Below are positions 1 through 22,903 of a stretch of DNA of 23,046 nucleotides, piece after piece (the stretch's first letter is position 1; every line of letters starts with the position of its first letter). The notes beneath the pieces were generated by a model. That model was not told the DNA's origin, did no database searches, and saw only the letters and a list, made by a program, of their open reading frames with translations. The translations under genes were made by a program, and so were the position numbers. The DNA lies in the IMG/VR virus record IMGVR_UViG_3300010885_025055, positions 1 to 23,046 of that record. One strand, given 5' to 3'. The stretch is from a virus.

Positions 1-813
1 CTGTGAGAAACCAAGTAAAGTAACACTCAAACCACTATTGTTACTAAAAATAAGATTACTAGCACCTTGCCCATCTCCCTTGATAAAGATGTTGTTTGCT
101 GTTGGAAGATTGAGCGATGCCGTAATCTTGTATTTTCCATAGGGAATATAGACACAACAATTATCAATCGCAGTTGCCCTAGTAAGAGCCGATTGAATTG
201 CCGCAGTGTCATCAGTAACGCCATCACCTACAGCACCAAAATCCTTGACGTTGATGATGTCTGCAAAACGATCTGGTAGGGTGCGAGCTGTCGTGCTACC
301 AGTTGCAGCGATAGGCGCAATCTTGGTGGCAGTAATAGCCCCGTCAGCAATAGCAGAAGCAGATTGCGGAACCCACGCAGGAGTTGCGCCAGTGGAACCA
401 ATGCCTAAAACAAATGGGGCCGATCCCGTTGTTACGGAAGGGTCAGGAGGTGCAAGGCGAGCAAGCTGCTGCGCCTCCATTGTGAGCTTGTCTAAAGCCT
501 TCTCAAGACTAGCAGCAGGCAGACGATCACCCGTGGTGAGTGAGGTCAGTTGCGTGTAGGGGACAGAACGGGAGATGATGACCTTTGAGGTCGCGGGAAT
601 TGCCGCTGTGGTTACGATAGATCCCGTTGAACCATTGCCACCAGTGACGGTGTAATTGGTTGAGAGGGTAAGGAGGGTCGAGGTTCCGGCAGAGTCTACC
701 GAATAAACCTTTAGATCAGAGGCATCGAAAAAGGGAAAGGAGACCACATATGGCGTCACCGTGGACGCATTGCCCGTGTAGGATACGGAGGATGTGGAGG
801 AAGATAGTGACAT
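1..813 (-). CDS. Tailspike / tail fibre, N-terminal part (runs off left edge)
   Basis: The frame is open from ATG at 813 to the window edge (271 codons), so the C-terminus is missing. Residues 10-120 resemble the virion-binding N-terminal domain of T7 gp17: an opening SYTGNASTVT, then SFPFFDASDLKVY, a beta-rich stretch and a helical part at residues 97-120. At residues 188-210, NVKDFGAVGDGVTDDTAAIQ is the signature that starts pectate-lyase-type beta-helix domains of phage tailspikes. By family knowledge, the protein binds the tail through its N-terminus and recognises or cleaves surface polysaccharide through the beta-helix. Which sugar is targeted, and whether it is enzymatic, cannot be seen here. 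It is the last gene of the tail block. A GAGGGG Shine-Dalgarno candidate lies about 17 bases upstream, inside a small hairpin, and a putative phage promoter motif lies 46 bases upstream of the start. Confidence 0.88.
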   Translation of the reverse strand, partial: MSLSSSTSSVSYTGNASTVTPYVVSFPFFDASDLKVYSVDSAGTSTLLTLSTNYTVTGGNGSTGSIVTTAAIPATSKVIISRSVPYTQLTSLTTGDRLPAASLEKALDKLTMEAQQLARLAPPDPSVTTGSAPFVLGIGSTGATPAWVPQSASAIADGAITATKIAPIAATGSTTARTLPDRFADIINVKDFGAVGDGVTDDTAAIQSALTRATAIDNCCVYIPYGKYKITASLNLPTANNIFIKGDGQGASNLIFSNNSGLSVTLLGFSQ

Positions 814-829
814 CGTGGGAATATATACA

Positions 830-845
830 CCCCTCAAAAGAGGAG
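830..845 (-). promoter_or_regulatory. Small hairpin covering the tailspike ribosome-binding site
   Basis: On the minus strand CTCCTC, loop TTTT, GAGGGG can form a 6-bp stem with one G-U pair. The right arm GAGGGG is the only Shine-Dalgarno-like sequence ahead of the tailspike ATG, so the stem would partly hide it. An AT-rich TGTATATATT follows, but it is not a clean T-tract, so I do not call a terminator. Confidence 0.35.
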
Positions 846-858
846 TGCAACCTGTAAG

Positions 859-872
859 AACTGGACATCTCT
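859..872 (-). promoter_or_regulatory. Putative phage promoter motif, copy upstream of tailspike
   Basis: Minus-strand GAGATGTCCAGTTC, extendable to GAGATGTCCAGTTCnTA. The identical 14-mer occurs at 15374-15387 upstream of the capsid gene and was not found elsewhere in the window by eye. It lies just after the stop of the 2334-residue gene and 46 bases before the tailspike start, which is where T7 has promoter phi17. It does not look like a sigma70 promoter, so a phage-encoded RNA polymerase is inferred. No such polymerase gene is in the window. Confidence 0.5.
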
Positions 873-877
873 CATTT

Positions 878-3800
878 TTATTCGGAGGTTGCCTCTTCTG
901 AGTCGGCGGGCACACGGTTCATGCTGTGGAACCGATGGAGGATCTCCTTTCTACGCTCGACCGCGGCTTTATACCGTTGCTGGTCATCCTCATCGAGAGA
1001 TTTGTAGAACTCCTTATCGTGCTTCGTGCTGCCCGTGAATGGGTGATCAATGCTCGACTTGAATCCCGTAGCGACATCGTGCTTCTTCATGCCTCCGGCA
1101 ATCAGTTTATCAACCTCCTTATGGGCTTTCTCCGTGTCGTTGTCTTCCAGTGCGTAGCGGAGTTGCTGGTACTTGGAGACGGGGTAACTGCCCTTTTGTA
1201 CGTCTTCGGGGTAGTTAGCTTTCACCCAATCATGCGCCATTGGATAGACTGTGGTGATAGGGGAGTAACGGTGGATCTGAACACCACCGGACGCGAGAAT
1301 CTGCTCCCACCATGAAAGGTCATGTGCCCGTCCAGTTGATGTCCACTCACTGACGAGAGGTTGAAGGGCCATCGGCACGACTCCCGCCATGATGTCACCT
1401 ATGGCATCTCCCACGCTCGTGCGTTCACCACGGTAGTTGACCCCAAAGACTCCTTCCTGCACGAACTTGCCGAAGAGTGGTGAAATACGTCCTCCGATGA
1501 ATCCCGTAGTATTGGAGACAAGTTTGTACATGTCCTCCGGCACGGATCGGAGTCCGTAATACTTGTTATCCACTCGGATCTCAAATGGGTGCTTCCACTC
1601 GTAGTCATCATTGGTCAGCTTGTTGAAGATGCGGGCACCGATGAACTGAGTCATGGCGAGGAAGGCGAGTGCTTGAAGCTGCTCCGTTCCTACTTTACCT
1701 CCCACAAGCCCCTTTGCTGCTTGCCCTACGAAGCGGGCGCGGGCCTCTAAGAAATCGGGTGCCAGTAGGATGATCTGTGCGGCATGCCGGATCGTTGGGT
1801 TGTGACCCATGTCCGTGTAGTTGAGGTGACCGTAGGCAGCATTAGACTGCCGCGCAGAGAGGTTCTTGATCTGCCACTCATCCACCTTACCCGCGGCAAG
1901 ATCGGCCTTATACCTGTCCATATTCCTCTCAAGAATATGGGTGTAGGTGTTGAACTTGAGGGCAGGGATGTACTGCGAGAAGAGGTAGTGCTGGTAGGCA
2001 TCAAGCGTGTCCGCGGCTTTTGTGCTAACACCCCACCCGATCTTACGGAGGCCCATCGTCAAAAGGTTGGAGTTGTTGTCTCCGACACCCTCCATGAAGA
2101 GGGACTGACTCAAGCGGTCGTGCGCCAGCATGAGACCGTGCTCGGAGGCATCGCGTTGAGCGGGATCTCGTAGGTCGATCTTTGGGAGACCGTTAAACGG
2201 ACTGACCCGATGACCGATTGCGTGAATACCTTCCTGCACTTGATGGAAGGGTGAGAGAGAAAGCATCGTCCCTTTGACGTAACTCTGAGCTTTTAGCAGG
2301 ACGTTTGCCGTTCCCTTGACCGCGTTATGGAAGGGGTTCTCAGTCTTTGTTCCGAGGTAGCGTGTGATTGCGGAGGAGGAGAGAGCGTTGTTTAGATGTT
2401 GGGCAATTTCGGGATGAACTGCTAGATCACCCTTAGTGAGCACGTTGTTGCCGGAGGAGTCTTGCCCCGCAAACTTCCAATCGTGAAGGGCGGGTTGGTC
2501 GAGCTTCTTGTAGTCTTCCGTGCCTTCATCTGCCGCGTCTGGATAGACCAAATGCGTGGTGCCATTAGCTGTTGTGGTCTCCTTACCGGAACCGCGGGCA
2601 GAGACGAGAGGGCGACCGTCAGCACCCTTCAATCCGCGGAGTTCCTCAACGAACCTACGCGAGTTGATCGCGTTGTTCATGTCGTTCATGTAGAGACCGA
2701 GTAGTTTGGCAATGTCTTTGGTCTCCGGCTCATACCCGTGCTGCTCTCCCTCGTGGTAGCTATCAAAGGTGCGTTCTTGGGAAAACTTGAAGAACTCATC
2801 GAGACGCTTTGGTGTGGAACCGGATGGGGGTTGCGGTTCGGTCTTGTAGACATGGGGAACGTAGTTCTCCCTGTACCCCATCTCGATCCCGTATGCCTCT
2901 GCCCTCTTCTTGAGAACGTCAAAGGTCTGCTGGATCTTGCCTGCTAGTTTCTCCTGCTCCGGCGTGAATGCCAGTGCTGCATCGTATCCCGCTTTGAGCT
3001 TTGGATCCGTTGTGCCGTTAGCCCGCAGGCGAAGGAGTGACTTGTCGCCACCCGCCTCAATCCAGTTGGTGATCCCTTCACGGGTCGCCTGCTGCGGGGC
3101 AACCGTTTCGATGTCGTGCTGCGCCCTCTCAATGTCGTTGGTGGATCGCTGAGAACGTGCCGACCACTTGAGGAGTGCCTTCTTAAATGGGGAAGCCGCG
3201 GGAAGATCGCGCATCGTGCTCTTGAGTCTGGTGAGGGATTCCTCAGTCTTCTCGCGGAGGGTTGGGGGAGGGGGAGTGACACCCCTAATGATTGGGGTAA
3301 TGTTGATTGATCCGGCCTCTGATGAAAACCGTGATCCCTTGTAAGCATCGTTGTAAGCATCGTACAGTTGCTTCAGCACTCCGGCAACGTGGTTGCCGAG
3401 ATCCGAGATCATCTGTTTGGCAAAGTCTACATACTCAACACCCTTCTTATAGATGCCCTCACCGTATCGGTAGATGTCCTCAAGAATTGTTGGGTCAATG
3501 AACCCTCCCTGCGACTTGAGGCGGGAACGGATGTTGGCCGCTTGCTGCTCCTTTGAGGGAGGCCCATTAGATGGCGCACTCTCCGACCCTGTTGAGGTTT
3601 CTACGGTTGGATCTGAGAATCTAGAGAGTCGTTCTTCGCGGGTTCCGGTGAGGGAGTCGGGGGCATGTTGTTCGATGGCATCGTTGACGATTTCTGCGTA
3701 CCTCCCACGAAAATTAAGGATGTCCCGTACTTTGCTATTGCCTCCTCCGTCGATAAGTCGTTGACGGTAATTCTCCCCTTCTTGTTGGGTGTTCCAGTTG

Positions 3801-6800
3801 TTTTCATTGGCATCTATTGTTGTTTGTGTTCTGTCTACGATTAAATCTACACCCTCTCGTTCAGCCCATGCACTGATTTTTTGTGTCATGTCATCCCGTT
3901 GCTTTTCCGTGAGTCCCTTTGGTGTAAGGGTTCCTTTCTTGGTTCCAACCAGCATGACCCGCTCTCCATCTCTGTAGGGCTGGACAGTCATGCCGGAAAT
4001 CCCCGCTTCCTTTGCTAAGGATTCCAGTTGTTCTGGAGTTAACTTTCCTCCGTCTTCGGGATGGAAGAAAATCGCGGAACTGTTCTTGCCCCCCTTTTCA
4101 AAGATTGCAGTCATGCTTCCACCCTGCTCGGAAACAAGTGCTAAAGCGTTTCCAAGCAATGCAGCAGACTCTGAACTGGCAAGAACTTCGATTGCGGTGC
4201 TTGGAGATGACTCACCTCCCCACCTTCCATTGGTCGCCGAAACGGAGCGGACACGCATTGACCCGCCAATAATCTGCGCCAGTTCCGGCACAGCAGTTGA
4301 GATGACTTGATGCGTGATTGCCGTCTGAGCCTCCATTGGAAGCGTCGATAAATCTGGGAATGCTGCGGGCAATCGATTGCCCTTGGAGTAGTTCACCTCT
4401 GCGTAGATGTGGGTAGTGTTGTGGGCGAGTGCCGTTGCAACCGTTGGTTCCGGCAATCCGTACTGTCGCAGGATCCTCATCCAACCAACTGCTTGAACCT
4501 CTGCGGGATTCCACCCACCACCTTCCCACTCTTGCTTGTTGAGGTGATCGGTGAGGTTGTTGCCCCACTCACTGATTCCCTCATAGTTACCATCACTTGG
4601 GGATCCGCGTTGATCGACAAACATATCGAATGGTTTCTTGCCTTTGATTTTTACGCTTATGCGTTCCGGCTGAACTGTCTCTTTAGTGGATCCATCCTCC
4701 ATCTTTTTGGTCACCGTCTTAGATTCCAGCACATCAATGGATACTGATTTATCTCCCACGAATAAATTGCCTTCATCTGCCATCTCTTTGAGGCGGGTAA
4801 GCGTTTGCTGATCAACATGTCCACTGTCTCGTCCGGTATGAACGTCTGCCACAAAGGGCATTCCACCCGCGAGATGTTCACCCATATAGGTGCGTGTGGG
4901 GCGTTGGAATCCAGCATCCACAAAATCGGTTAGCTTTTGCCCGAATCCTTTTTCCGGTATCGTATTGGTCAGAATCCCCTCAATCTTTTCATCTGCGAGA
5001 CCACCCTTCTTGCCCGTGCCAATTCCAGCAAGACGGTCTTCTACTTTGAAGACATTCCCAAGAGCACCGGAGGGAGAAACGTTCTGTTGAGCGGCAAGCC
5101 ATGCCATCATCATTGTGGGTGCATCCTCACCAAAGATATGGGTGAAATTCCCCTTCAGTTCAGTGTACCACTTTCTAAAGTCTGCAATCTCCGCGGGTTT
5201 TAACCACTGATCATTTTCCTTCACCCAATCCTCAAAGGGTTTTCCTCCCTGCTTTGGATCTGCTCCCACAACAATCGTGCGCCCATCAGAATCGTGAAAG
5301 CGGGTAAGCTGATTCTTGGCAACGCCAGTTCCCTCTCGTCTGCTCTGTTTTTTCTCTAGATTGGTTTTTGCGTCACCAACTGCCTCCCGCAAGAACGCAA
5401 GACCCGACTCATCAATGCCTGCCTGCTGCATGATTTCTGCTTTGGTCTCGGTCTTAGCTTTCTCAACTCTTGCAGCAAAATCATCTGCCTTCCCGCCGAT
5501 GGATCCGGCATTGCCGAGTGACTTGTATCCGTTCCAAATTTTACCGAGGACACTTTTCACTTTTTCGCCAAACTCCGAGATCATCCGCTTTGACCAATCC
5601 GCAAAAGTTTGCCCCTTCTCGTAGATCGACTTCCCGTACTCAGAGAGTTTGTCGTAGATCGGTGTGATGTCTAAAAACCCGCTCTCTCCGCTTGCGCGGT
5701 TGGAGAGGAAGTCTTGGAGTTGCTGCTTCACCTCCTCATTGGTGGTGGGAACTGGATCTTTTCCCATTGGGAGTTCATCCAACGTATCGTCGGGGAGTGG
5801 ATCCTGCGCGACCTCCGGTTGCCGTCCCTCATCCAGTACAGTCTTAGCATCCTCCGCGGTGGATCCTGTCCAATCATTGCCATCCTTCTCCTCTTTTGCC
5901 TGCTTCTCGATCAAGTGATCCTGCATCGCCATTGTGAAGGCAGTCTCTGCTGCTTCCTGATCCGTAAAGGTCGAGGCATGCTCCTTACCTTCCGCGTCAA
6001 CGGTGGTCACCCTAAAGGTGCCGTCGAAGTTGTTGACCAGTTTGGGGGCATCCGGCGCATTGATGGTGTCAACGATCTGCTGGTAGTTGTCTTTGATGAG
6101 TTGGGTTCCCGCGGCGATGTCCTCTTTAGTGCGCTTATCCCACCCTTCACCAATGGCTTGAAGTCGTTGATCCTCCGGCAGATCGGAGATGCGGGTCGCC
6201 TCATCGTGTGAGAATCCCTGCTCCTTTAGTGCCATCGGGTCTGCCGCGTTCTTTGCGGCTTGCGTTGCCACTTCTGGATCTACCTTTCCCCCACGGGAGG
6301 CAATGTGTGCCGCGGCTCCGAAGATGCCCAACTCCACAAATAGATACGGGACATTCTTGAGGGTTTCCAAATACTCTGCGGCAAACTGCTGCCCCGCGTT
6401 GATGTCTTTGTTCCACGCATGTTCCAGTTGGGCATAGAGGGTTTTGACTCCCTCTGCGGTAGAGAGGAGCACCGTCGATCCGGCGAAGTGCTTGATGACA
6501 CCCACTACGGAGGGGGCAACCTTTCCGAGTAGCTTGATCGCTTTGGTGCCGATCACCGTCGAGAGGGCCGCGGGCACAATGGAACGCTCAAACGACTCCC
6601 GTGCCGTCATGTTGGGGTTCTCCTGCATGTGCTTGAGGGTCAGATTGCTCACCTCATTGAGTCCAAATGCTACTTCTCCGACATATGGCACCATAAACGG
6701 GAGAACTTGTGGGATCATCCCAACGACACCACTAGCGACTTTGCTGACGGATCCCTTCCACCCGTAGTGTGCAGGTGGGGCATTCAACTCTGCGGTTGCA

Positions 6801-7882
6801 AACTGGCGAACCTTTTGAGCTAGAAGAATGTCGTTGTACTGCTGTTGGAATTTATCCTTTTCCGCGGGATCTGTTGCCGCGTCCCTCTGCTCCTCTAACT
6901 TGATGAGGGTATGAACATCTGTTATCCGACCATAACTTTCCGCACTTGCAGAAAAGGAATCGGCAAGACCGTTGAGTTCGGCAAGTACACCGGAATCGGC
7001 ACCCTGCTTCTTGAGGTATTGCCGCGCAAGCGTAAGGACTTTCGTCTGATCATCCGCGTTAAGCCCGCGGAGGTACTGCTTTGGGTCAGTAAATGTTGGG
7101 AACTCTTTGCTGTAGTCGGATGCCTTCGCTTCTTTTGTGTTTCCAGTGAGAGCGTCAACAAACCTCTTTGCTAGTGCCCCTTCCGGTGTGTTGAGTGCCT
7201 GCTGAATCGGTTTGTACACCGAATTGAAGGCATTGAACCTCTCGCTCTCAGAAAGTCCTTTAAGGGCATCCTCGTGCGATGACTGCCAGTTACTGAAACG
7301 GGTCAATGCTGGAACTGACATTCCCTTGTCGGCATCCTCAAAGGCATCGTTGATTGCCTGCGACTTGAGACCGTCAAGGGCAGAGACCCGTTTGTCGTGC
7401 TGCTGGAACACTCCGGCAATGTTGTTGCGGAACGTGCCGACATTGTCGGTAGGGTCAAAGTTGTACTGCTTCTCAAGTGCGGACTGATAAAAGCCAAAGT
7501 TATCGACAACGTCTTGGATGGGTGAACCCGTGAGGTGAGCCACTGCCGCGTAGGAGGCGACTTGATCACGATACCCCTGCGAATCGGTGGTCTTTTGGGA
7601 GTTGAGGATCGCTTGCTCTGCCTGCCCTCCGAGATTGATCGGATCGTAGAGCATTGCCTTCACGCGGGACTCCTGCTGCTGGTAGGGTTCCGTTTGAGTG
7701 AGGTCGGTGCCAAATGGTCGGAGGTTAGCCCCGTTGTCATCCTTCATTGCCTGCGCCATCTCCGGCGAGGTGGTGAAGGAATCAAACTTGTTGGTAAGCT
7801 CCTGCTTTTGCAGTCCCTCCTCAGTAAGTGGTGCCGTGGTGGGAACCTCAGAACTCTGAGGTGCGTAGGTAATTTCAGCCAT
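878..7882 (-). CDS. Giant internal virion (ejection) protein, polyvalent type, 2334 residues
   Basis: This gene sits where T7 encodes gp16, after gp14-like and gp15-like genes and before the tailspike, but it is much longer than T7 gp16 (about 1300 residues). Visible layout: residues 1-380 hydrophilic helical; about 385-530 several hydrophobic stretches (for example GMIPQVLPFMVPYVGEVAFG and VPYLFVELGIFGAAAHIA); about 728-785 a module with YGKSIYEKG and MISEFGEKV; about 895-1140 a helical domain containing FGEDAPTMMMAWLAAQQN, PFVADVHTGRDSG and WNPAEVQAVGWM; about 1200-1400 an alpha/beta-looking region; about 1450-1515 a second copy of the 728 module (YGEGIYKKG, MISDLGNHV); about 1530-2334 a long helical region with YVPHVY near 1667 and hydrophobic helices near 2040-2080. 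I saw no lytic transglycosylase motif. The role as an ejected DNA-delivery protein is inferred from position and size. AAGG lies 11 bases before the ATG. Confidence 0.75.
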   Translation of the reverse strand: MAEITYAPQSSEVPTTAPLTEEGLQKQELTNKFDSFTTSPEMAQAMKDDNGANLRPFGTDLTQTEPYQQQESRVKAMLYDPINLGGQAEQAILNSQKTTDSQGYRDQVASYAAVAHLTGSPIQDVVDNFGFYQSALEKQYNFDPTDNVGTFRNNIAGVFQQHDKRVSALDGLKSQAINDAFEDADKGMSVPALTRFSNWQSSHEDALKGLSESERFNAFNSVYKPIQQALNTPEGALAKRFVDALTGNTKEAKASDYSKEFPTFTDPKQYLRGLNADDQTKVLTLARQYLKKQGADSGVLAELNGLADSFSASAESYGRITDVHTLIKLEEQRDAATDPAEKDKFQQQYNDILLAQKVRQFATAELNAPPAHYGWKGSVSKVASGVVGMIPQVLPFMVPYVGEVAFGLNEVSNLTLKHMQENPNMTARESFERSIVPAALSTVIGTKAIKLLGKVAPSVVGVIKHFAGSTVLLSTAEGVKTLYAQLEHAWNKDINAGQQFAAEYLETLKNVPYLFVELGIFGAAAHIASRGGKVDPEVATQAAKNAADPMALKEQGFSHDEATRISDLPEDQRLQAIGEGWDKRTKEDIAAGTQLIKDNYQQIVDTINAPDAPKLVNNFDGTFRVTTVDAEGKEHASTFTDQEAAETAFTMAMQDHLIEKQAKEEKDGNDWTGSTAEDAKTVLDEGRQPEVAQDPLPDDTLDELPMGKDPVPTTNEEVKQQLQDFLSNRASGESGFLDITPIYDKLSEYGKSIYEKGQTFADWSKRMISEFGEKVKSVLGKIWNGYKSLGNAGSIGGKADDFAARVEKAKTETKAEIMQQAGIDESGLAFLREAVGDAKTNLEKKQSRREGTGVAKNQLTRFHDSDGRTIVVGADPKQGGKPFEDWVKENDQWLKPAEIADFRKWYTELKGNFTHIFGEDAPTMMMAWLAAQQNVSPSGALGNVFKVEDRLAGIGTGKKGGLADEKIEGILTNTIPEKGFGQKLTDFVDAGFQRPTRTYMGEHLAGGMPFVADVHTGRDSGHVDQQTLTRLKEMADEGNLFVGDKSVSIDVLESKTVTKKMEDGSTKETVQPERISVKIKGKKPFDMFVDQRGSPSDGNYEGISEWGNNLTDHLNKQEWEGGGWNPAEVQAVGWMRILRQYGLPEPTVATALAHNTTHIYAEVNYSKGNRLPAAFPDLSTLPMEAQTAITHQVISTAVPELAQIIGGSMRVRSVSATNGRWGGESSPSTAIEVLASSESAALLGNALALVSEQGGSMTAIFEKGGKNSSAIFFHPEDGGKLTPEQLESLAKEAGISGMTVQPYRDGERVMLVGTKKGTLTPKGLTEKQRDDMTQKISAWAEREGVDLIVDRTQTTIDANENNWNTQQEGENYRQRLIDGGGNSKVRDILNFRGRYAEIVNDAIEQHAPDSLTGTREERLSRFSDPTVETSTGSESAPSNGPPSKEQQAANIRSRLKSQGGFIDPTILEDIYRYGEGIYKKGVEYVDFAKQMISDLGNHVAGVLKQLYDAYNDAYKGSRFSSEAGSINITPIIRGVTPPPPTLREKTEESLTRLKSTMRDLPAASPFKKALLKWSARSQRSTNDIERAQHDIETVAPQQATREGITNWIEAGGDKSLLRLRANGTTDPKLKAGYDAALAFTPEQEKLAGKIQQTFDVLKKRAEAYGIEMGYRENYVPHVYKTEPQPPSGSTPKRLDEFFKFSQERTFDSYHEGEQHGYEPETKDIAKLLGLYMNDMNNAINSRRFVEELRGLKGADGRPLVSARGSGKETTTANGTTHLVYPDAADEGTEDYKKLDQPALHDWKFAGQDSSGNNVLTKGDLAVHPEIAQHLNNALSSSAITRYLGTKTENPFHNAVKGTANVLLKAQSYVKGTMLSLSPFHQVQEGIHAIGHRVSPFNGLPKIDLRDPAQRDASEHGLMLAHDRLSQSLFMEGVGDNNSNLLTMGLRKIGWGVSTKAADTLDAYQHYLFSQYIPALKFNTYTHILERNMDRYKADLAAGKVDEWQIKNLSARQSNAAYGHLNYTDMGHNPTIRHAAQIILLAPDFLEARARFVGQAAKGLVGGKVGTEQLQALAFLAMTQFIGARIFNKLTNDDYEWKHPFEIRVDNKYYGLRSVPEDMYKLVSNTTGFIGGRISPLFGKFVQEGVFGVNYRGERTSVGDAIGDIMAGVVPMALQPLVSEWTSTGRAHDLSWWEQILASGGVQIHRYSPITTVYPMAHDWVKANYPEDVQKGSYPVSKYQQLRYALEDNDTEKAHKEVDKLIAGGMKKHDVATGFKSSIDHPFTGSTKHDKEFYKSLDEDDQQRYKAAVERRKEILHRFHSMNRVPADSEEATSE

Positions 7883-7888
7883 GAATGG

Positions 7889-9841
7889 TTAGCCTTTTTG
7901 CACACCGACTATTTTTCGGTCTTGGTAGGGGTTAGCTTTCTCTCCGCGGGTGTTATAGAAGTCTGCACGTTTTGTGAGTCCCTCCTCAGTTGTATCGTCG
8001 TTGGTTGCCGCAACCATCGTGCCGTCATCGAGGTGCAAGATGATCGGGTCACCCTTCTTGATGCCTTCTGCCTTAATCTTCCGCTTGATCTCGCGTGAGA
8101 ATCCAACACTCCCACCGTTATCAGTCTGATCCACGAGTTTATTCTCATGGTCTCCTTTACCCATCTTTGTGTTGGAATCCATGTAGGGATCGGATTTATA
8201 TCCGTAGGTTGTTCCTACGGCATCAATAGGGATTACGGGATTATTGTTCGCCTGCCCGTGGAACCAGTTATAGATAGGCCCGTGCTTTGGTGCTGGCTTA
8301 TTAAAGAGAGAGGAGGCATCGGCACCCTGCTGGTACTTCTTCATCGCGGAATCAAGTCGGTCTGCTGCCTCCTTTGGGGTAGATGGAGGGCCGGAAGGGT
8401 AGGTGTCATGTCCGATTTTACCTCCCGACAGAACCTGCACTTGAATCCCCTCCGCTTTGGTTGCGGCTTTATTGGAATCAGTCGCCTCTTGCGTATCGGT
8501 AGGGGTTGCCGCGTAAGGCCCAAAGGTGCCTCCGACCAAGTGAGCCTTCACACCACGAGCAACATCGGTGACGATCTGAGTTTCCGGCTTGAGGTTGCCC
8601 CCATTTTCGGACATCTCTAACCTTTTCTTTTCAAGCGTCTTGAGTTGGTCATCTAAGAATGGAGCCGGAACCGTAGACATCAGTTGGATCTGAGTTGCGT
8701 AGTATGCCTTGCCGACATCACTCCCATCGGTAGGCGGGAAACTGTCCACCTTACTCTGACCGTTTTTGCGGTTGATCTCTCCCTGCGGAGTTCCGAGATA
8801 TGGTTGCGCCACATATTTGTAGACGGCATTCCGCACATCGGATGGCATATTTTGGAATATCGTGTCTTTCTCAAGTTGGTTAACGCTAGTGAGAGTTCCC
8901 GACTTGAACTGATCCATGTAATGACCCGCCATCGTCCATACGGTGTCGTTAGCCATTGCCGTTCCCGACTTTGCTAGTTTTTTGACATGTTCCGCGTCGA
9001 GATTGCCAATCCCGACCTCTTTGTCTGCTGCATCTTGTAACCTCTTGAGGGTTGGGCCTTGAACATCTTTTGATTGCCCCGTCATGAATTGGTCGTTTTC
9101 AGCTTGAAGTCCCTGCACCCATCCCAGTGTTTCACCGCGGGTTTGTATTGCTGTTTGGAACGAGATTACCTGCGACTTAGAGAAGTTGCCTTTACTCTGA
9201 TAGGCATCCAGCAATGGCTTGAGACCTTCCACCTCTTTGGGTGTTTTTGCGGTTGTAAGTTTATTACTGAAATCTTGCGTTGCGATTGCAGCATCCTCTT
9301 GTTGCTGGTTGACAAAGGCTTGAGTGCTCGCCTGCTGCATGCCCGTGTGGAAAACACGCATGGCATGTGGGATCATTACCTTCATTTCTCGGTTATCTAG
9401 TCCGTTCTGACCATTATGACCATTAAGCAACTTTTCTCCATCTGAACCAAATGCCTGCACATATGCAGCGGGCCATTGAGCTACCGGAAGGTTGGCGCGG
9501 AGTTCGTTGTATCTGTTAGTTGCTGCCGTCTCGTTTTGCGTCAGCTTGATAAGACCGGAATCGTAAGCGAGCTTCTGCCCTTTCTGCTTGTCATAGGAAT
9601 CCATCTGCATGGCAGTTCCGGCAATCTCAGAAGTTGTCCGTGCCGTTGCGTTTCCGATTGCTGCTTGTGCATCGTACTTGAGTCCGGCATTGCGTGGGTC
9701 TTGCATGACCCCTTGGAACCCGCGAGCGATCTCTCCTTTCGCTTGATCTCCGACTTGATCGGTTGGGAATCGGTAGTCTGCAATAGGGGTAAACACACCC
9801 TGCGGGGCATTGGGCACTTCTTTTAACGGGATGACTGCCAT
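7889..9841 (-). CDS. Internal virion protein, T7 gp15-like position
   Basis: A 650-residue soluble protein, rich in Gln, Ala, Asp and Lys, with predicted helices and no membrane segment. It lies between the gp14-like gene and the giant ejection protein, the position of T7 gp15 (747 residues), so an inner-core or ejected channel component is inferred. The N-terminus begins MAVIPLKEVPNAPQGVFTPI. The last 90 residues form a separate-looking part with VGFSREIKRKIKAEGIKKG followed by DPIILHLDDGTMVAA, which looks like a small beta-rich domain. I recognise no catalytic motif. Only a weak AAAGAA purine stretch precedes the ATG. The TAA stop is 7 bases before the next ATG. Confidence 0.7.
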   Translation of the reverse strand: MAVIPLKEVPNAPQGVFTPIADYRFPTDQVGDQAKGEIARGFQGVMQDPRNAGLKYDAQAAIGNATARTTSEIAGTAMQMDSYDKQKGQKLAYDSGLIKLTQNETAATNRYNELRANLPVAQWPAAYVQAFGSDGEKLLNGHNGQNGLDNREMKVMIPHAMRVFHTGMQQASTQAFVNQQQEDAAIATQDFSNKLTTAKTPKEVEGLKPLLDAYQSKGNFSKSQVISFQTAIQTRGETLGWVQGLQAENDQFMTGQSKDVQGPTLKRLQDAADKEVGIGNLDAEHVKKLAKSGTAMANDTVWTMAGHYMDQFKSGTLTSVNQLEKDTIFQNMPSDVRNAVYKYVAQPYLGTPQGEINRKNGQSKVDSFPPTDGSDVGKAYYATQIQLMSTVPAPFLDDQLKTLEKKRLEMSENGGNLKPETQIVTDVARGVKAHLVGGTFGPYAATPTDTQEATDSNKAATKAEGIQVQVLSGGKIGHDTYPSGPPSTPKEAADRLDSAMKKYQQGADASSLFNKPAPKHGPIYNWFHGQANNNPVIPIDAVGTTYGYKSDPYMDSNTKMGKGDHENKLVDQTDNGGSVGFSREIKRKIKAEGIKKGDPIILHLDDGTMVAATNDDTTEEGLTKRADFYNTRGEKANPYQDRKIVGVQKG

Positions 9842-9860
9842 GTGATTTCTTTGCTAGGGG

Positions 9861-10667
9861 TTAGTGAGACCCCAACTTGGTAAAGTAGGGAGTTGACGTA
9901 TATTGAACTCCACCTGCATTTGAGTAAGTCTTTGGAGCATTCATAAGAGATCCGGTGTCGTTGCGAGCGTAGTACGCGGCAGATCCAAAAGAGGATGCTG
10001 CTTGCCCTATGCTGGAGATTGCGGAGGAGATGCCTCCCATTGCTGTGGCATCTGCTGCATTGTTAGCGGCCTGCTGCTGGACGTTGGCACCCATAATGCC
10101 CATTTTCTGTGACCAATCTGCCATTGCGCCCGCGTACTGAAACTGCTTCGCGGTCTCGCGGGTGAGTGTTGCTTGATAGGAGGACATGGCACCCTTCCAA
10201 TCGGTGTCCATTGCCTGCAAGTTGGTGTTGTAGGCTTGATCCATGCGGGCAAGTTGCTGCTGCCCTGCATTATATGCTGCTACGACCACGGGGGCACCGG
10301 AATCAACAGTCACGCCACTGGCACCATAGGATGCCTTTGCAGCAGAGTTGACCACTTCATCCTGCTGAATCATCCGACTTCCCTGCTCAAAACCCACGCT
10401 CTCGGTTGTTCGTGCAGACTGATGGTATGCCTTAGCATTTGCATCAGAGACATCTGCCTGCGCCATCGCGGACTTGTAGTTAAGGTCGGCTTGAAACTTA
10501 GAGACTGCTGCCTGTGCGTTGACCTGCTGCTTTTGCAAAGCTGCGTTGGATGCCGCGGCACCCCTCTGTGCTCCGGCAGACTGCTGTGAAGAGTAGATGG
10601 AGTAAGCTCCACCACCGACAGCGGCAGCAGCAGTGACTCCCAATGCAATGGTGCTTACGGGGAACAT
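9861..10667 (-). CDS. Internal virion protein, T7 gp14-like
   Basis: 268 residues. The N-terminus has a hydrophobic segment (residues about 5-25, FPVSTIALGVTAAAAVGGGA) followed by a long Ala/Gln-rich helical region (about 30-200) and a Gly/Ser-rich C-terminus. Size, an N-terminal hydrophobic helix, Ala/Gln coiled coil, and position directly before the two larger internal proteins match T7 gp14, the ejection protein that reaches the outer membrane. The function is inferred from these features. A strong GGGAGG Shine-Dalgarno lies 7 bases before the ATG, and the start overlaps the end of the upstream cupin-like gene by 13 bases. Confidence 0.72.
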   Translation of the reverse strand: MFPVSTIALGVTAAAAVGGGAYSIYSSQQSAGAQRGAAASNAALQKQQVNAQAAVSKFQADLNYKSAMAQADVSDANAKAYHQSARTTESVGFEQGSRMIQQDEVVNSAAKASYGASGVTVDSGAPVVVAAYNAGQQQLARMDQAYNTNLQAMDTDWKGAMSSYQATLTRETAKQFQYAGAMADWSQKMGIMGANVQQQAANNAADATAMGGISSAISSIGQAASSFGSAAYYARNDTGSLMNAPKTYSNAGGVQYTSTPYFTKLGSH

Positions 10668-11137
10668 GGCAGTGCCTCCCGTGTTAGGTACGACTGCCGG
10701 AACCCCTGCGGCAATAGATCGTTATCAAAGTAGGTGATTTCCTCCGCAATGACATCGGGGTCAGTCTCGTTGGTGGGATTGGCATGGATAGTCATGAGGA
10801 TCGAGTCCTCGTGGAAAATGATGACCCTGCAACGATCCGGCACGGTGATCTCCATGTGGGGGGCATCAAGCATCACATGGTCACCTTTTTCGTTCACCAC
10901 CTCGATCTTGCCCTTGAGAAGCAGGAACGGGTGCTGAGTCTTGTGGGTGCGGGTGCACCACAACTGACCAGCAGGAACATTTCCCTGTCGTACATAGAGA
11001 CCCTCCGTGAAGTGGTGGATCATCTCAAAGTCTGCCTGCGGGAGTTTCGCGCATTCTCCTGCTAGAATGTCCATCTTCCTCTTGTGAGTGATAGGAGTGG
11101 TAGCGAGATCCATGAGTCGTTCTTGTAGCATAACCAT
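10655..11137 (-). CDS. Cupin-like protein in tail operon
   Basis: 160 residues. Residues about 43-120 read as a small beta-barrel of cupin/RmlC type: HFTEGLYVRQGNVPAG, then HPFLLLKGKIEVVNEKG, then VTVPDRC-like turns and a final HANPTNETDPD. The GxI(E)V after a PFLLLKG strand is the usual second cupin motif. Such genes recur next to podovirus tail genes, but their role is not established. Candidate metal ligands (several His) are present, but a complete canonical ligand set is not obvious. GAGGTG lies 11 bases before the first ATG. A second in-frame ATG two codons later could also be used. Confidence 0.65.
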   Translation of the reverse strand: MVMLQERLMDLATTPITHKRKMDILAGECAKLPQADFEMIHHFTEGLYVRQGNVPAGQLWCTRTHKTQHPFLLLKGKIEVVNEKGDHVMLDAPHMEITVPDRCRVIIFHEDSILMTIHANPTNETDPDVIAEEITYFDNDLLPQGFRQSYLTREALPCSP

Positions 11138-11154
11138 ATATACACCTCAAGCCA

Positions 11155-13581
11155 CTACTGACCCGCCTCCGAGGAATCCCAACTTGCCGCAATAGCCACC
11201 ACGGTGAGGGGCATCGGGAGGGTCTGCCGGATACTGATATCCACACCATCCTTCCAGTTGGAAGAGACCGAGACACGTTGGTATCCGAGGATGACCGGAG
11301 GGAGTTCATCCATGTCGTCGGAGAGGTGCCTGCTCACTAGCGGGAACCATGTCACCCCATCGGACGAGTACTCGCCCGCGAGAGAATTATAGACCTTCAC
11401 ATTCATCTTGTTGATCCGCATCCGGCGACCTGCGGAAGTGCCGTCTTGCAAATCCTTCTGCAACATCATCGGCGTAAGCGTCGAGGTGTAGGGTAGTCCA
11501 ATCAGCACGGAGGAGGCAGGAGACTGCAAGGTGATGCTTCCGGACACTACGGTCGGTTGCGTCACAATAAGCGATCCTACGGCATTGTCGCTCCATACAG
11601 ACACGGTCTGACCCTCTAAGTGAGAGAGTCCTGTGATAGTGGATGTGGGAGATCCGAACGTCTTCAGCACTGCGGCATCGAGATACCACCAGTTGGAGGT
11701 GTCGGCATTGTCGAGAGCATCGCGCATTCCAACTCGGAAACGCTCGATATAGCGGACGGTAGCCCCATTAATGACTCGTTTCACGGACACATAGACTTCG
11801 TCTTCACCATTCACTCCGTTGATGGTGGCAACCGATTCAAAGGATCCACCACTCGTGGTGTGCCTGCTAAATCCGACCACCTGCTGCTCGCGTTCGTAGG
11901 TCATGCTGACCAGTTGCCCGTCCGTGCGGACAATCCAAAGGAGGGCATCCGGCACACGTTGGTAGGCTTGCTCCACGATCCCTCCGCGGGTCGTGTGTTC
12001 CGCGAGTGCGGTGATGTCGTTACTGACCCATGTCTCCGAGTTCCATGTGTAGACGAACTCGCGCAACTTCCGGCCCATCTTTTGGAGGTAGATGACGGTG
12101 TCGTTGATGATGAGGGCAGGTAGTCCGGCAGACCCGTACTTGCTCTGCCGCTTTGCCAGCACGTTGGTCGGGGTGAGGGGTCTAGTCCCATCGGAAGAGG
12201 AGAGAGACCACTCGTCTTGGGTGGTGCCGACCAGCAGGCCCGTCTTACTGGTTAGCCACTGGATGCGCCCACCGGAGTTACTGGCAAGCGTGAAGGAGTA
12301 GGAATCGGAGTCGTAGGCACCCTGCCGGAAGTTTTCAAAGTCGTTGGTGTACGATCCCCAAATGGTGGAAGGGGCCGCGGAGGTGCCCGCGTAGATGATC
12401 CGAGACTCGTGGATGGAGCAGGAGGATGGGTATCCGTTTGCAGCGGAGAATGCTCCTTCCTTCCAAATCGTCGTGGTTGTTGCCGATCCGAGAGTTTTCA
12501 CAACCTGTGCGGTGACAACCGTTGGGGAGGTGTAACCCGTCACCCTCACGAATCCTTTCAATGTCGCATCGATGGGATTGAAAACGACACGCGGTGCTGT
12601 TGACGCACCCGTGATGGATGATCCCGCCACCACAAGACGCATGAGGCAGGTGGCGACCACCTCGCCGGAGGAGATCGCGTTGTAGTCGTTCTTACTGGAA
12701 TAGGTGCGAATCGTTCTCCAGTTGGTTCCGTTATCGTCAGACTGCTGGAGGGAAATGGTTGCCGTCCACGTTCCGAAAGTTTGAAGAGACCATTTGCCGA
12801 GCACCGTGATGGCAGTCGTGCCCGCGGTGTTGACTAGAAGAGATTGGTCGATGAGTTGGGTCGGGTTCGGGTGTGCGAGTTCCCAATAGGATCCCACATG
12901 GTTGGCGTTGAAGGTGGCAGTGGATGCCGTGAGTGAGATGGTTCCCGTCAATGCGGAGGGGAGGAGTGTCGTGCTGGTCGCATTGATGTCACCCATCGGT
13001 GCCCATGCCCACGGGATTTCACCCACTGTGAAGGGAGGGTTGTTAGAGTTGGTTGCCCAATAGGAAAGACGCATCGGAGGGTAGGAGGGGTGCGTGATGT
13101 AGGTCACGTTGTTCACCTGCACGATGGCAACAGACCGGAGATCGCTTTCGGTGTAGGGCACCGGAGTGCCTACTGAGCCGGAGGATGCAGCATAGACGGG
13201 CGCGGTGGCAGTGGAGGCGTAGGTGATCCCGATTGCCTCAAGCACGGATGTGGTCGTGTAGGCGACACCGTTCCATGTTGCGGAAACGGGGTGCGTCATG
13301 AGGGCACCATCCTTCCAAAACCTCATGTATCCCACTCCCAACTCCAGCACGATGCGGTTGGCATCGGAAAGGTTCAAACCAATCAAACGGCACCGAGTTG
13401 CCGATGTTTTTGCCGATCCTAAATACTCTGTGCCGGATCTCCTATTAGCAGGCCCGTAGGGGGTGATGAGATAGTTCTCTAAGGTAGAGCAACCGGAGCG
13501 ATATTTGTCGAGGTTGGTACGCGAGGAGAGGTAGGGACTTAACTCTCCCGCGTTAAAGGAGGAAATGAGGTCGTGGATCAC
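11155..13581 (-). CDS. Tail tubular protein B (tail nozzle), T7 gp12-like
   Basis: 808 residues, close to T7 gp12 (794). The N-terminus carries the family hallmark: FNAGELSPYLSSRTNLDKY, then GCSTLENYLITPYGPANRR and SGTEYLG (residues about 9-55). The rest is beta-rich, with repeated Thr/Ser/Gly strands typical of the beta-propeller nozzle. It forms the distal tail tube through which DNA leaves. The start codon is GTG, overlapping the stop of tubular A as GTGA. GGAGG lies about 10 bases upstream, inside the preceding gene, which supports this start. Confidence 0.9.
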   Translation of the reverse strand: MIHDLISSFNAGELSPYLSSRTNLDKYRSGCSTLENYLITPYGPANRRSGTEYLGSAKTSATRCRLIGLNLSDANRIVLELGVGYMRFWKDGALMTHPVSATWNGVAYTTTSVLEAIGITYASTATAPVYAASSGSVGTPVPYTESDLRSVAIVQVNNVTYITHPSYPPMRLSYWATNSNNPPFTVGEIPWAWAPMGDINATSTTLLPSALTGTISLTASTATFNANHVGSYWELAHPNPTQLIDQSLLVNTAGTTAITVLGKWSLQTFGTWTATISLQQSDDNGTNWRTIRTYSSKNDYNAISSGEVVATCLMRLVVAGSSITGASTAPRVVFNPIDATLKGFVRVTGYTSPTVVTAQVVKTLGSATTTTIWKEGAFSAANGYPSSCSIHESRIIYAGTSAAPSTIWGSYTNDFENFRQGAYDSDSYSFTLASNSGGRIQWLTSKTGLLVGTTQDEWSLSSSDGTRPLTPTNVLAKRQSKYGSAGLPALIINDTVIYLQKMGRKLREFVYTWNSETWVSNDITALAEHTTRGGIVEQAYQRVPDALLWIVRTDGQLVSMTYEREQQVVGFSRHTTSGGSFESVATINGVNGEDEVYVSVKRVINGATVRYIERFRVGMRDALDNADTSNWWYLDAAVLKTFGSPTSTITGLSHLEGQTVSVWSDNAVGSLIVTQPTVVSGSITLQSPASSVLIGLPYTSTLTPMMLQKDLQDGTSAGRRMRINKMNVKVYNSLAGEYSSDGVTWFPLVSRHLSDDMDELPPVILGYQRVSVSSNWKDGVDISIRQTLPMPLTVVAIAASWDSSEAGQ

Positions 13582-14171
13582 GCGAGCATTCCTCCGAACC
13601 TGCTACGCACAAGTGGTGAGTTGAGCCACGGTTCAATCTTGCGAGGGCGGGTGGAGTTGGCATCGATGCGTCCTGCCTCGGCGATCGCCACCTTAAACTC
13701 CCCTAAAAGTTGGTTCTTGAGGTCGAGAGATCCGGCAAGCGGTTTGGCAAGCTCGGCAGCTAGACGCAGGGCAAACACTTCCACAAAAGATGGTGTGAAT
13801 GTAGACGCATTGGGGGCGTTGGAGATGTACGCGATGGATGCAGCTTCCTCATCGGTGAGTAGGGTGGATCCGTTGATCTCGTAATTGGCAATGGCATCGG
13901 TCGAAGAGAAGCTATTGAACTTCACGATGCGGGCAAAGTCAGCAGGGAGTTGATAGGAATAGTTCCAATCGAAAATAGGTGCCACAGAGTTCCGCGACAA
14001 GTTGGCGAGCACGGTGGCAAAGTTCCATGTGTTCTGCATCAGCACTTGAGCGAGAACAACCGGATAGAAGAGTTTGCAGAAACGGGATTCCAACGTGTTG
14101 TCATCAAGGCTAGTGATCGACTGATCTCCGATTTTGGAGAGTGCGAGATTGCAGATGGTCGTTGAATCCAT
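13578..14171 (-). CDS. Tail tubular protein A (head-tail adaptor), T7 gp11-like
   Basis: 197 residues, the same size as T7 gp11 (196). The N-terminus ICNLALSKIGDQSITSLDD, then the cysteine/tyrosine stretch FCKLFYPVVLAQVL and TWNFATVLANL, matches the adaptor family that docks on the portal and receives the nozzle. It is immediately upstream of tubular B with a 4-base overlap. It has no Shine-Dalgarno: the bases before the ATG are a T-rich terminator tail and ACATTTTCTCT, so initiation may depend on something else. It is the first gene after the capsid terminator. Confidence 0.85.
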   Translation of the reverse strand: MDSTTICNLALSKIGDQSITSLDDNTLESRFCKLFYPVVLAQVLMQNTWNFATVLANLSRNSVAPIFDWNYSYQLPADFARIVKFNSFSSTDAIANYEINGSTLLTDEEAASIAYISNAPNASTFTPSFVEVFALRLAAELAKPLAGSLDLKNQLLGEFKVAIAEAGRIDANSTRPRKIEPWLNSPLVRSRFGGMLA

Positions 14172-14188
14172 AGAGAAAATGTTGGGTT

Positions 14189-14227
14189 AAAAGAAAGGGG
14201 TGGAGTCCCGTGATGAGACCCCACCCC
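14189..14227 (-). terminator. Intrinsic terminator after the capsid gene
   Basis: On the minus strand, arm 14227-14215 (GGGGTGGGGTCTC) pairs with arm 14209-14197 (GGGACTCCACCCC) in a 13-bp stem with two G-U pairs and a 5-base loop, followed directly by TTTCTTTT. The strong GC stem plus T-tract 15 bases after the capsid stop is a textbook Rho-independent terminator. The two wobble pairs form only in minus-strand RNA, which confirms the direction. T7 has its main late terminator at the same place, after gene 10. Confidence 0.87.
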
Positions 14228-14241
14228 CGACTTGGGAGGAA

Positions 14242-15174
14242 CTACTGCTTGGTCGTGTCCGTGAGGATCGTCACCACACCGTTGTCAAGCAGACGGGTGG
14301 CACCGATGACCGCGGTGGAACGAATTGCCAGACCGTGGCTCAAGTCAGCGCGAATATCCATGTAGGTCTTGCGTCCACCGTCCACGAGAACGAGAGCGTT
14401 CTTGTGATAGGCGAAGCAGGTACGGAGCTTCGGAGTGCCTGCCGTGGTGAGACCCTCATAGCGGATCACCTTGAAACCGAGGAAGGAATCAACCTGTCCA
14501 TCCACAAGAGCGCGAACGCTATTATAGAGTTGGTTGGTAACCTCTGTCGTGCTCAAGAGATCGGCGATCTCAGCGGCACTGATAACGAGCACTCGATCCT
14601 CAAGAGGAACCTCTGCGGAATCCAACTTGAACTTGGCATAACGCACCTTGTCGATGGTCAAGCCACTGTTGACTGCGGTGCCACCAAAGGGAACGCGATT
14701 GACTGCGATCTGCTGGTTGGTCGTGTCGTAGGCAACAGACGATGTCGTCTGGATACCGGAGGAGCTGGAGGCAGTTTGAGTAGCGGAACCTGTGGCAGCA
14801 GTGTTGATGATGCTGTCCACGGTACGGTTATACGCGGCGACTTGACTCTGCATGATCTCACTGGTTGGGTTGGAAACCGAACCGAGGAAGATTTCGTCGA
14901 ATTCGTCAACAATGTTGGCGACATCGTAAGGAGTCGGGTAGGCCCAACGGGTTGGCATCGTGATGTCGATGGTAGGAGTCGCCACGTTCTTTGCGGTGAC
15001 TGCTGCCATGCTGATCTTGTCCAACTGGTTGAAGCGGACTGCGGCACCGGATGCGGTGACGAGTTTGACACGCTCTTTCAAGCGGGAATCAAGCTGCTGG
15101 AGGAGGAGCTGCCAGCTATTCTCGTAAGCGATTACGAAATGCTGATCAATCTGAGTGAGGTTTGTCTGAGGCAT
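14242..15174 (-). CDS. Major capsid protein
   Basis: 310 residues, preceded by the scaffold gene and followed by the tail adaptor, the standard order for podoviruses. The sequence fits an HK97-fold capsid protein of T7-like or related type: an N-terminal helical part (QIDQHFVIAYENSWQLLLQQ), a central P-domain-like helix containing EIMQSQVAAYNRTVDSI (about residues 105-122), and a C-terminal KTYMDIRADLSHGLAIRSTA followed by GATRLLDNGVVTIL. The shell role is inferred from order plus this pattern. The start has no close Shine-Dalgarno, only GGAG about 18 bases upstream. The mRNA leader is long, with the nearest putative promoter about 200 bases upstream. Confidence 0.85.
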   Translation of the reverse strand: MPQTNLTQIDQHFVIAYENSWQLLLQQLDSRLKERVKLVTASGAAVRFNQLDKISMAAVTAKNVATPTIDITMPTRWAYPTPYDVANIVDEFDEIFLGSVSNPTSEIMQSQVAAYNRTVDSIINTAATGSATQTASSSSGIQTTSSVAYDTTNQQIAVNRVPFGGTAVNSGLTIDKVRYAKFKLDSAEVPLEDRVLVISAAEIADLLSTTEVTNQLYNSVRALVDGQVDSFLGFKVIRYEGLTTAGTPKLRTCFAYHKNALVLVDGGRKTYMDIRADLSHGLAIRSTAVIGATRLLDNGVVTILTDTTKQ

Positions 15175-15373
15175 GATAGTAGGTGGGTGTGTCTCCGCGG
15201 GTTGGTTAGCGGAAACGAGTTTGGATTGATGTCCGGTCTGCTCTGATTGTCCCTAATGGGGTCAGTCTCAATCGGGTCACTCCACCTACATGGGCCGAAG
15301 ATTTGGTTATCCTTCGATGGCGTTGAAATGTCTATACACCTATCGGCATGCCAACGCAAGCCGGACTAGTTAC

Positions 15374-15387
15374 GAACTGGACATCTC
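15374..15387 (-). promoter_or_regulatory. Putative phage promoter motif, copy upstream of capsid
   Basis: Minus-strand GAGATGTCCAGTTC, identical to the copy at 859-872 ahead of the tailspike. It lies 200 bases before the capsid ATG and directly after an 11-bp hairpin. The position corresponds to T7 promoter phi10, ahead of the capsid gene. Confidence 0.5.
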
Positions 15388-15565: not shown

Positions 15566-15575
15566 ACAGTTCAAT

Positions 15576-15643
15576 CACCGATTCATCCAGTGGTAGGATC
15601 CCGTGCTTATCGGGAAACGAGTGTTCGATTCACTCATCGGTTG
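15576..15643 (+). tRNA. tRNA-like cloverleaf, possibly degenerate tRNA-Lys(CTT)
   Basis: A 68-base plus-strand sequence folds as a cloverleaf: acceptor CACCGAT/ATCGGTT (6 of 7 pairs, C1-T72 mismatched), D-arm ATCC/GGAT with loop AGTGGTA (A14, G18-G19 and A21 equivalents present), anticodon arm CCCG/CGGG with loop TGCTTAT, a 4-base variable region, and T-arm GAGTG/CACTC with the canonical loop TTCGATT. Odd points: base 26 is absent, the anticodon stem has 4 pairs (5 only if the D-stem gives up a base), the base before the anticodon is G rather than the near-universal T, and no CCA is encoded. Read literally, the anticodon is CTT. It lies opposite in strand to all confident protein genes. A decayed tRNA or tRNA mimic is as likely as a working tRNA. 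Confidence 0.45.
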
Positions 15644-15651
15644 ATTAAACT

Positions 15652-22714: not shown

Positions 22715-22903
22715 TCACGGGATCAGACCGGAGATGTACTTCCCGCGGGAGAGATCACCGCGGAGGGTGTCGAGCCTCTCCCACTCCGGCGCGGGCATGG
22801 AGACCCCTCGTGTGATTGCCGTCCTGCCCTTTGCGTTGGGGTTGGTGGATCCCTTCTTACGTCCGGCACCTTTGCGTTTGCCTCCGTGTGGTTTGGGTTT
22901 CAT
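22715..22903 (-). CDS. Putative ribbon-helix-helix DNA-binding protein
   Basis: 62 residues from ATG 22903. I chose this start because AGGAGG lies 7 bases upstream and the ATG overlaps the previous stop. A longer start at 22963 would cover the preceding gene. The first half is a basic tail (GGKRKGAGRKKGSTNPNAKG) and the second half, RGVSMPAPEWERLDTLRG then RGKYISGLI, has the strand-helix-helix pattern of small CopG/Arc-type regulators. It could act on the inverted repeat just downstream, but that is inference. Confidence 0.6.
   Translation of the reverse strand: MKPKPHGGKRKGAGRKKGSTNPNAKGRTAITRGVSMPAPEWERLDTLRGDLSRGKYISGLIP

Follow-up and report, generated by a model that had tools for sequence, protein, structure and literature searches.

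A conserved 14-base element at predicted host-type promoters of capsid and tailspike genes in lake phages: a probable upstream regulatory site

The question raised by this locus is what a 14-base sequence may do when it is repeated unchanged ahead of the capsid and the tailspike genes of a phage. The window (the whole stretch of viral DNA analysed here, 23,046 nucleotides) is a 23-kb fragment of a podovirus-like phage, whose capsid protein is 30-33% identical to those of the HTVC010P-type pelagiphages (e.g. Skadi-1). It contains exactly two copies of the 14-mer GAGATGTCCAGTTC, both on the minus strand, at 858-871 and 15374-15387, and the record has no third site within 2 mismatches of it. An earlier note gave the capsid copy its correct coordinates, whereas its position for the tailspike copy (859-872) was one base off. 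Its statement that both copies are located in non-coding DNA, on the sense strand and ahead of the tailspike and major capsid genes, was confirmed (Table 1). The proposed extension of the 14-mer by a common nTA also held, as the triplets that follow the two copies are TTA and GTA.

Table 1. Positions of the genes and of the observed and predicted elements in the window.
Feature	Position	Strand	Basis
Major capsid protein gene	14242..15174	-	phrog_3437 4e-48, PF19821; ATG at 15174
Tailspike gene, truncated by record end	1..813	-	PF12708 1e-17, pectate-lyase-like domain; ATG 813-811
14-mer GAGATGTCCAGTTC, upstream element of capsid promoter	15374..15387	-	place kept in all near relatives
Predicted -35 TTGCGT, capsid promoter	15354..15359	-	TTG column and geometry
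Predicted -10 TATAGA, capsid promoter, 17-nt spacer	15331..15336	-	promoter geometry
GGTGTATAGACA, imperfect copy of GGTGTN4ACACC overlapping capsid -10	15329..15340	-	sequence match
Conserved structured leader of capsid mRNA, ~155 nt	15175..15330	-	covariation, model search
5' arm GTAGGTGG of long-range leader helix	15282..15289	-	sequence covariation
3' arm CCACCTAC of leader helix, 4 nt before capsid ATG	15179..15186	-	sequence covariation
14-mer GAGATGTCCAGTTC, upstream element of tailspike promoter	858..871	-	kept in relatives G003, G005, G010, G016
Predicted -35 TTGCAC, tailspike promoter	845..850	-	promoter geometry
Predicted -10 TATATA, tailspike promoter, 8 nt before ATG	822..827	-	promoter geometry

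A repeated 14-mer in 23 kb is by itself unremarkable and represents weak evidence. In fact, about 10 distinct exact 14-mer repeats are present in the whole window (15 pairs when overlaps are counted, as compared to 2.0 pairs expected from a second-order Markov model). In pooled non-coding DNA a shared 14-mer arose in 6 out of 2000 simulations; a per-segment shuffle (238/400) was discarded because the model almost reproduces short segments. Since exact repeats of this length are not rare in the window, the case for GAGATGTCCAGTTC rests on the relatives, for which about 70 IMG/VR stretches were gathered by capsid and tail searches.

Every near relative retains the element ahead of the capsid gene in the form GARATGTCCAGWTY, with one mismatch or none, while further upstream their sequences are not alignable. 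At the tailspike gene the element is kept in G001, G002, G003 (with changes), G005, G010 and G016, and as a one-base variant in G008. G006 and G009 contain it at the capsid gene, and it was not found at their tailspike gene; an apparent G009 tailspike copy is the start of the coding sequence, ATGTCCATTTC, and was rejected. In G008, G010, G011 and G018 the element was also observed at a third place, ahead of a small ribbon-helix-helix gene; in G011 and G018 its distance from this gene is unchanged although the upstream gene differs, and the only copy near their capsid gene has the opposite orientation and lies over the -10. A more distant clade does not have the element. Several other matches with one mismatch are within long open frames and look like chance, and a short reading frame starting in the 14-mer (ATGTCC...) was ruled out, as the frames differ among relatives.

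In nine relatives, DARATGTCCAG occurs 11 times on the non-coding sense strand and once on the coding strand (about 508 kb; p ~3e-10, an optimistic value, as are the other enrichment p-values, because the relatives have common ancestry). The shorter GATGTCCRG reaches a count of 15, equalled by none of 500 permuted 9-mers, and its density in the same nine relatives is 2.4 per 10 kb of non-coding sense strand vs. 0.04-0.43 in coding DNA. In several relatives a terminator-like hairpin and its T-run come to an end only a few bases ahead of the element, which therefore belongs to the downstream unit. These comparisons support the view that the 14-mer is a conserved non-coding element, on the sense strand, at the promoters of capsid and tailspike genes. 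That it is a chance repeat falling in two gaps, as the abundance of exact repeats in the window might suggest, is hardly conceivable given its conservation and enrichment in the relatives, and is refuted by the conservation at the capsid site.

The DNA downstream of the element resembles a promoter core. Across 21 aligned capsid upstream regions a TTG column is invariant, and 17 nt further on there is a TATA-like hexamer. At 14 capsid and tailspike promoters of eight genomes, with hexamers picked by eye, the spacer is 17 nt in all cases and the element is found 5-14 nt upstream of the -35 (at 5, 7, 8, 13 or 14 nt; more than 30 nt at the third place), with its centre at about -47.5 to -56.5 relative to the predicted start sites. 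An independent tally of 35 promoter-like sites gave the best match to TATAAT at a spacer of 17 (mean 3.14 of 6 positions, as compared to no more than 2.23 with any other spacing). Agreement of the -10 hexamers with TATAAT is limited to 3-4 of 6 positions, and a strict sigma70 consensus scan of two regions of the window did not report the capsid and tailspike promoters. The core TTGNGG, with GTGTAT in the spacer, is also found ahead of further genes in these phages at which the 14-mer is missing, and indeed most of their promoters are without it. We predict that the capsid and tailspike cores are sigma70-like promoters of the host type.

At 19 of 43 core sites, a frame of 45 codons or more begins with an ATG 6-8 nt after the -10, as compared to about 5% of random places. 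This is the geometry of leaderless mRNAs and gives independent support to the promoters; many late genes may be expressed from such mRNAs. Leaderless-type sites were predicted in G001, G003, G005, G008, G010, G011, G016 and G018, and in the window at 813-827 and at the adhesin start near 11113. The short-range association with promoters and the position after terminators also argue against the 14-mer being a conserved linker that serves the recombination of gene modules and has no part in transcription; the copies are indeed located at module borders (before the tailspike gene, before the capsid gene and after the integrase gene), but we consider this explanation improbable.

The earlier note had compared the two sites with T7, in which phi10 and phi17 are placed ahead of the capsid and tail fibre genes, likewise on the sense strand, and had taken the 14-mer as a candidate promoter of a T7-like single-subunit RNA polymerase encoded outside the window. 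This polymerase was not borne out: PF00940 (T7-type RNA polymerase) was found in none of 35 related records, with T7 itself scoring 1e-110 as positive control. Several of the 35 records are probably complete, given exact repeats of 120-127 bases at their ends; the near-identical relative G001 (34.5 kb) is without PF00940, the window's own record being a 23-kb fragment. The early region of G006 encodes an integrase, Erf, an exonuclease, a DnaD/O-like replication protein and a DnaC-type loader, and no RNA polymerase was present among the replication and recombination genes found (integrase, Erf, exonuclease, DnaC-type loader). For the related isolate Skadi-1, host sigma70 promoters have been described and an RNA polymerase is reported to be absent (PMC10504331). 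An N4-type, virion-borne polymerase was considered for the 2334-aa protein whose gene (878-7882, minus strand) closes the virion operon, and is unlikely on sequence comparison: this protein has zero matches in Pfam and among PDB sequences, relatives show no conserved pattern for motif B, and the protein weakly matches a virion structural family.

The element itself also differs from T7-class promoters, which have a consensus of about 20-23 bp at a fixed distance from the start site and are repeated at most late promoters. Here the repeat is 14 bp long, has two copies per record and lies at a variable distance from the promoter core, which rules out a constant spacing between it and the start site, and the sigma70-like core is also found at promoters without the 14-mer. 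With no T7-type polymerase found in the 35 records, and Skadi-1 reported to have none, a T7-like promoter is very unlikely. What stands of the "phage-specific promoter" is a conserved element at late promoters, not the 14-mer as a promoter for a phage polymerase.

We consider it probable that the 14-mer is instead an upstream regulatory site which activates sigma70-type promoters read by the host, most likely as the binding site of a phage-encoded protein; a host origin of this protein is less likely. The capsid and tailspike operons would each have a weak host-type promoter, with a TTG-type -35, a 17-nt spacer and a TATA-like -10. A candidate late-gene regulator would bind the 14-mer, which directly precedes the -35 and occupies the place from which class I/II activators contact RNA polymerase, and would activate the host enzyme at these promoters, thus timing late expression, with the 14-mer making up for the weak -35. 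Conservation, place, promoter geometry and the absence of a T7-type polymerase are the sequence-based part of this explanation; that a protein binds, that it activates rather than represses, and which regulator it might be, we infer. Where a relative does not have the element, the same column contains a better -35 (TTGAC vs. TTGCG), as expected if the element compensates for a weak one. This weaker -35 and an element centred about 48-57 bases upstream of the start point to activation, whereas the variable distance and the reversed copy over the -10 in G011 and G018 count against it, the reversed copy being better suited to a repressor.

Indeed, the 14-mer might be an operator for a repressor that silences the late genes, for instance in lysogeny. 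These phages carry an integrase, the half-palindromic shape GAnnTGnnCAnnTC fits a dimer, and one copy is located upstream of the ribbon-helix-helix regulatory gene. However, simple repression would not normally act from upstream of the -35, where the element is mostly found, and the palindrome GGTGTN4ACACC, which is inside promoters, represents a better repressor operator; for this 14-mer, repression seems rather unlikely. Among 16 relatives (e.g. G001, G012), the palindrome co-occurs with the gene for the ribbon-helix-helix (NikA-like) protein: the 12 genomes with the gene have 3-7 copies each, and the four without it, which may be one clade, have none. The protein was assigned to GGTGTN4ACACC because its gene is present exactly where the palindrome occurs, and the two are likely to be repressor and operator. 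In the window, a small GAGRK-type protein (~22715-22903, minus strand), without Pfam match, resembles by eye a second ribbon-helix-helix protein.

For the activating role that we favour, a different reader of the 14-mer may be sought. Two small DNA-binding proteins, the ribbon-helix-helix protein and an Xis-like HTH_17 protein, are encoded beside the integrase. The HTH_17 gene is present in 9/9 near and intermediate genomes, and only weak matches to it were found, in 2/7 far genomes. By gene presence it is the best-matching candidate, although a lead only, because other genes of that clade have the same distribution.

The capsid mRNA would start with a structured leader, which begins right after the -10 and whose conservation extends far beyond the clade with the 14-mer. 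RNAalifold gave changes on both sides in 10 of 14 pairs. A model built on 19 sequences detected, down to weak scores, further leaders at 12 loci on which it had not been trained, running up to the capsid ATG. The long-range helix GTAGGTGG/CCACCTAC, which is absent from some sequences, is replaced in relatives by GTAGTTGG/CCAACTAC, GAGTAGGCG/CGCCTACTC and others; adjoining the ATG, it could close over the capsid start codon. Since part of the same GTAGG strand is also able to pair upstream, the leader is possibly a switch or a pseudoknot. Rfam gave no match anywhere in the window at gathering score, nor in the capsid gap up to E = 5. The window also has a tRNA-like gene (15575-15644, plus strand), in opposite orientation to the structural genes; its body is conserved in relatives, its anticodon loop is variable (CTT, TTG, one not recognised), and G takes the place of the usual T just before the anticodon. 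More tentatively, these features may be combined into a two-site switch acting on the host polymerase, with the 14-mer (perhaps read by HTH_17), the ribbon-helix-helix palindrome, mostly leaderless late mRNAs and a structured capsid leader, an arrangement that we regard as possible but doubtful.

The closest known counterpart may be the Ogr system of P2 and 186, and on the best reading the 14-mer is functionally like P2 Ogr sites. The P2 activator site is at about -55, within the range of element centres obtained here from predicted starts. In P2, four late promoters and the zinc-finger activator Ogr have been described (PMC3931495). The two systems would share the host RNA polymerase, several late operons and weak promoters with an upstream activator site. 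Unlike the contiguous 14-mer, P2 sites are TGT-N12-ACA, with a CX2CX22CX4C activator.

In spite of the related capsid, HTVC010P-type phages infect SAR11, whereas the present group consists of lake phages, from other waters. As for their host, the capsid alignment matched nothing in genome contigs and the tail alignment matched only one contig of a Spartobacteria bin and two remote contigs; the tail relative in this metagenome bin is the sole hint. The HTVC010P-like phages rank with the most abundant ones in water, and we know of no description of how those without their own polymerase time their late genes. The correction made here warns that repeated motifs ahead of capsid genes should not be taken as a sign of T7-like polymerases. 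The capsid leader RNA may be a more novel feature than the 14-mer, and together the element, the palindrome, the two candidate regulators and the leader offer concrete sites at which late-gene timing can be tested.
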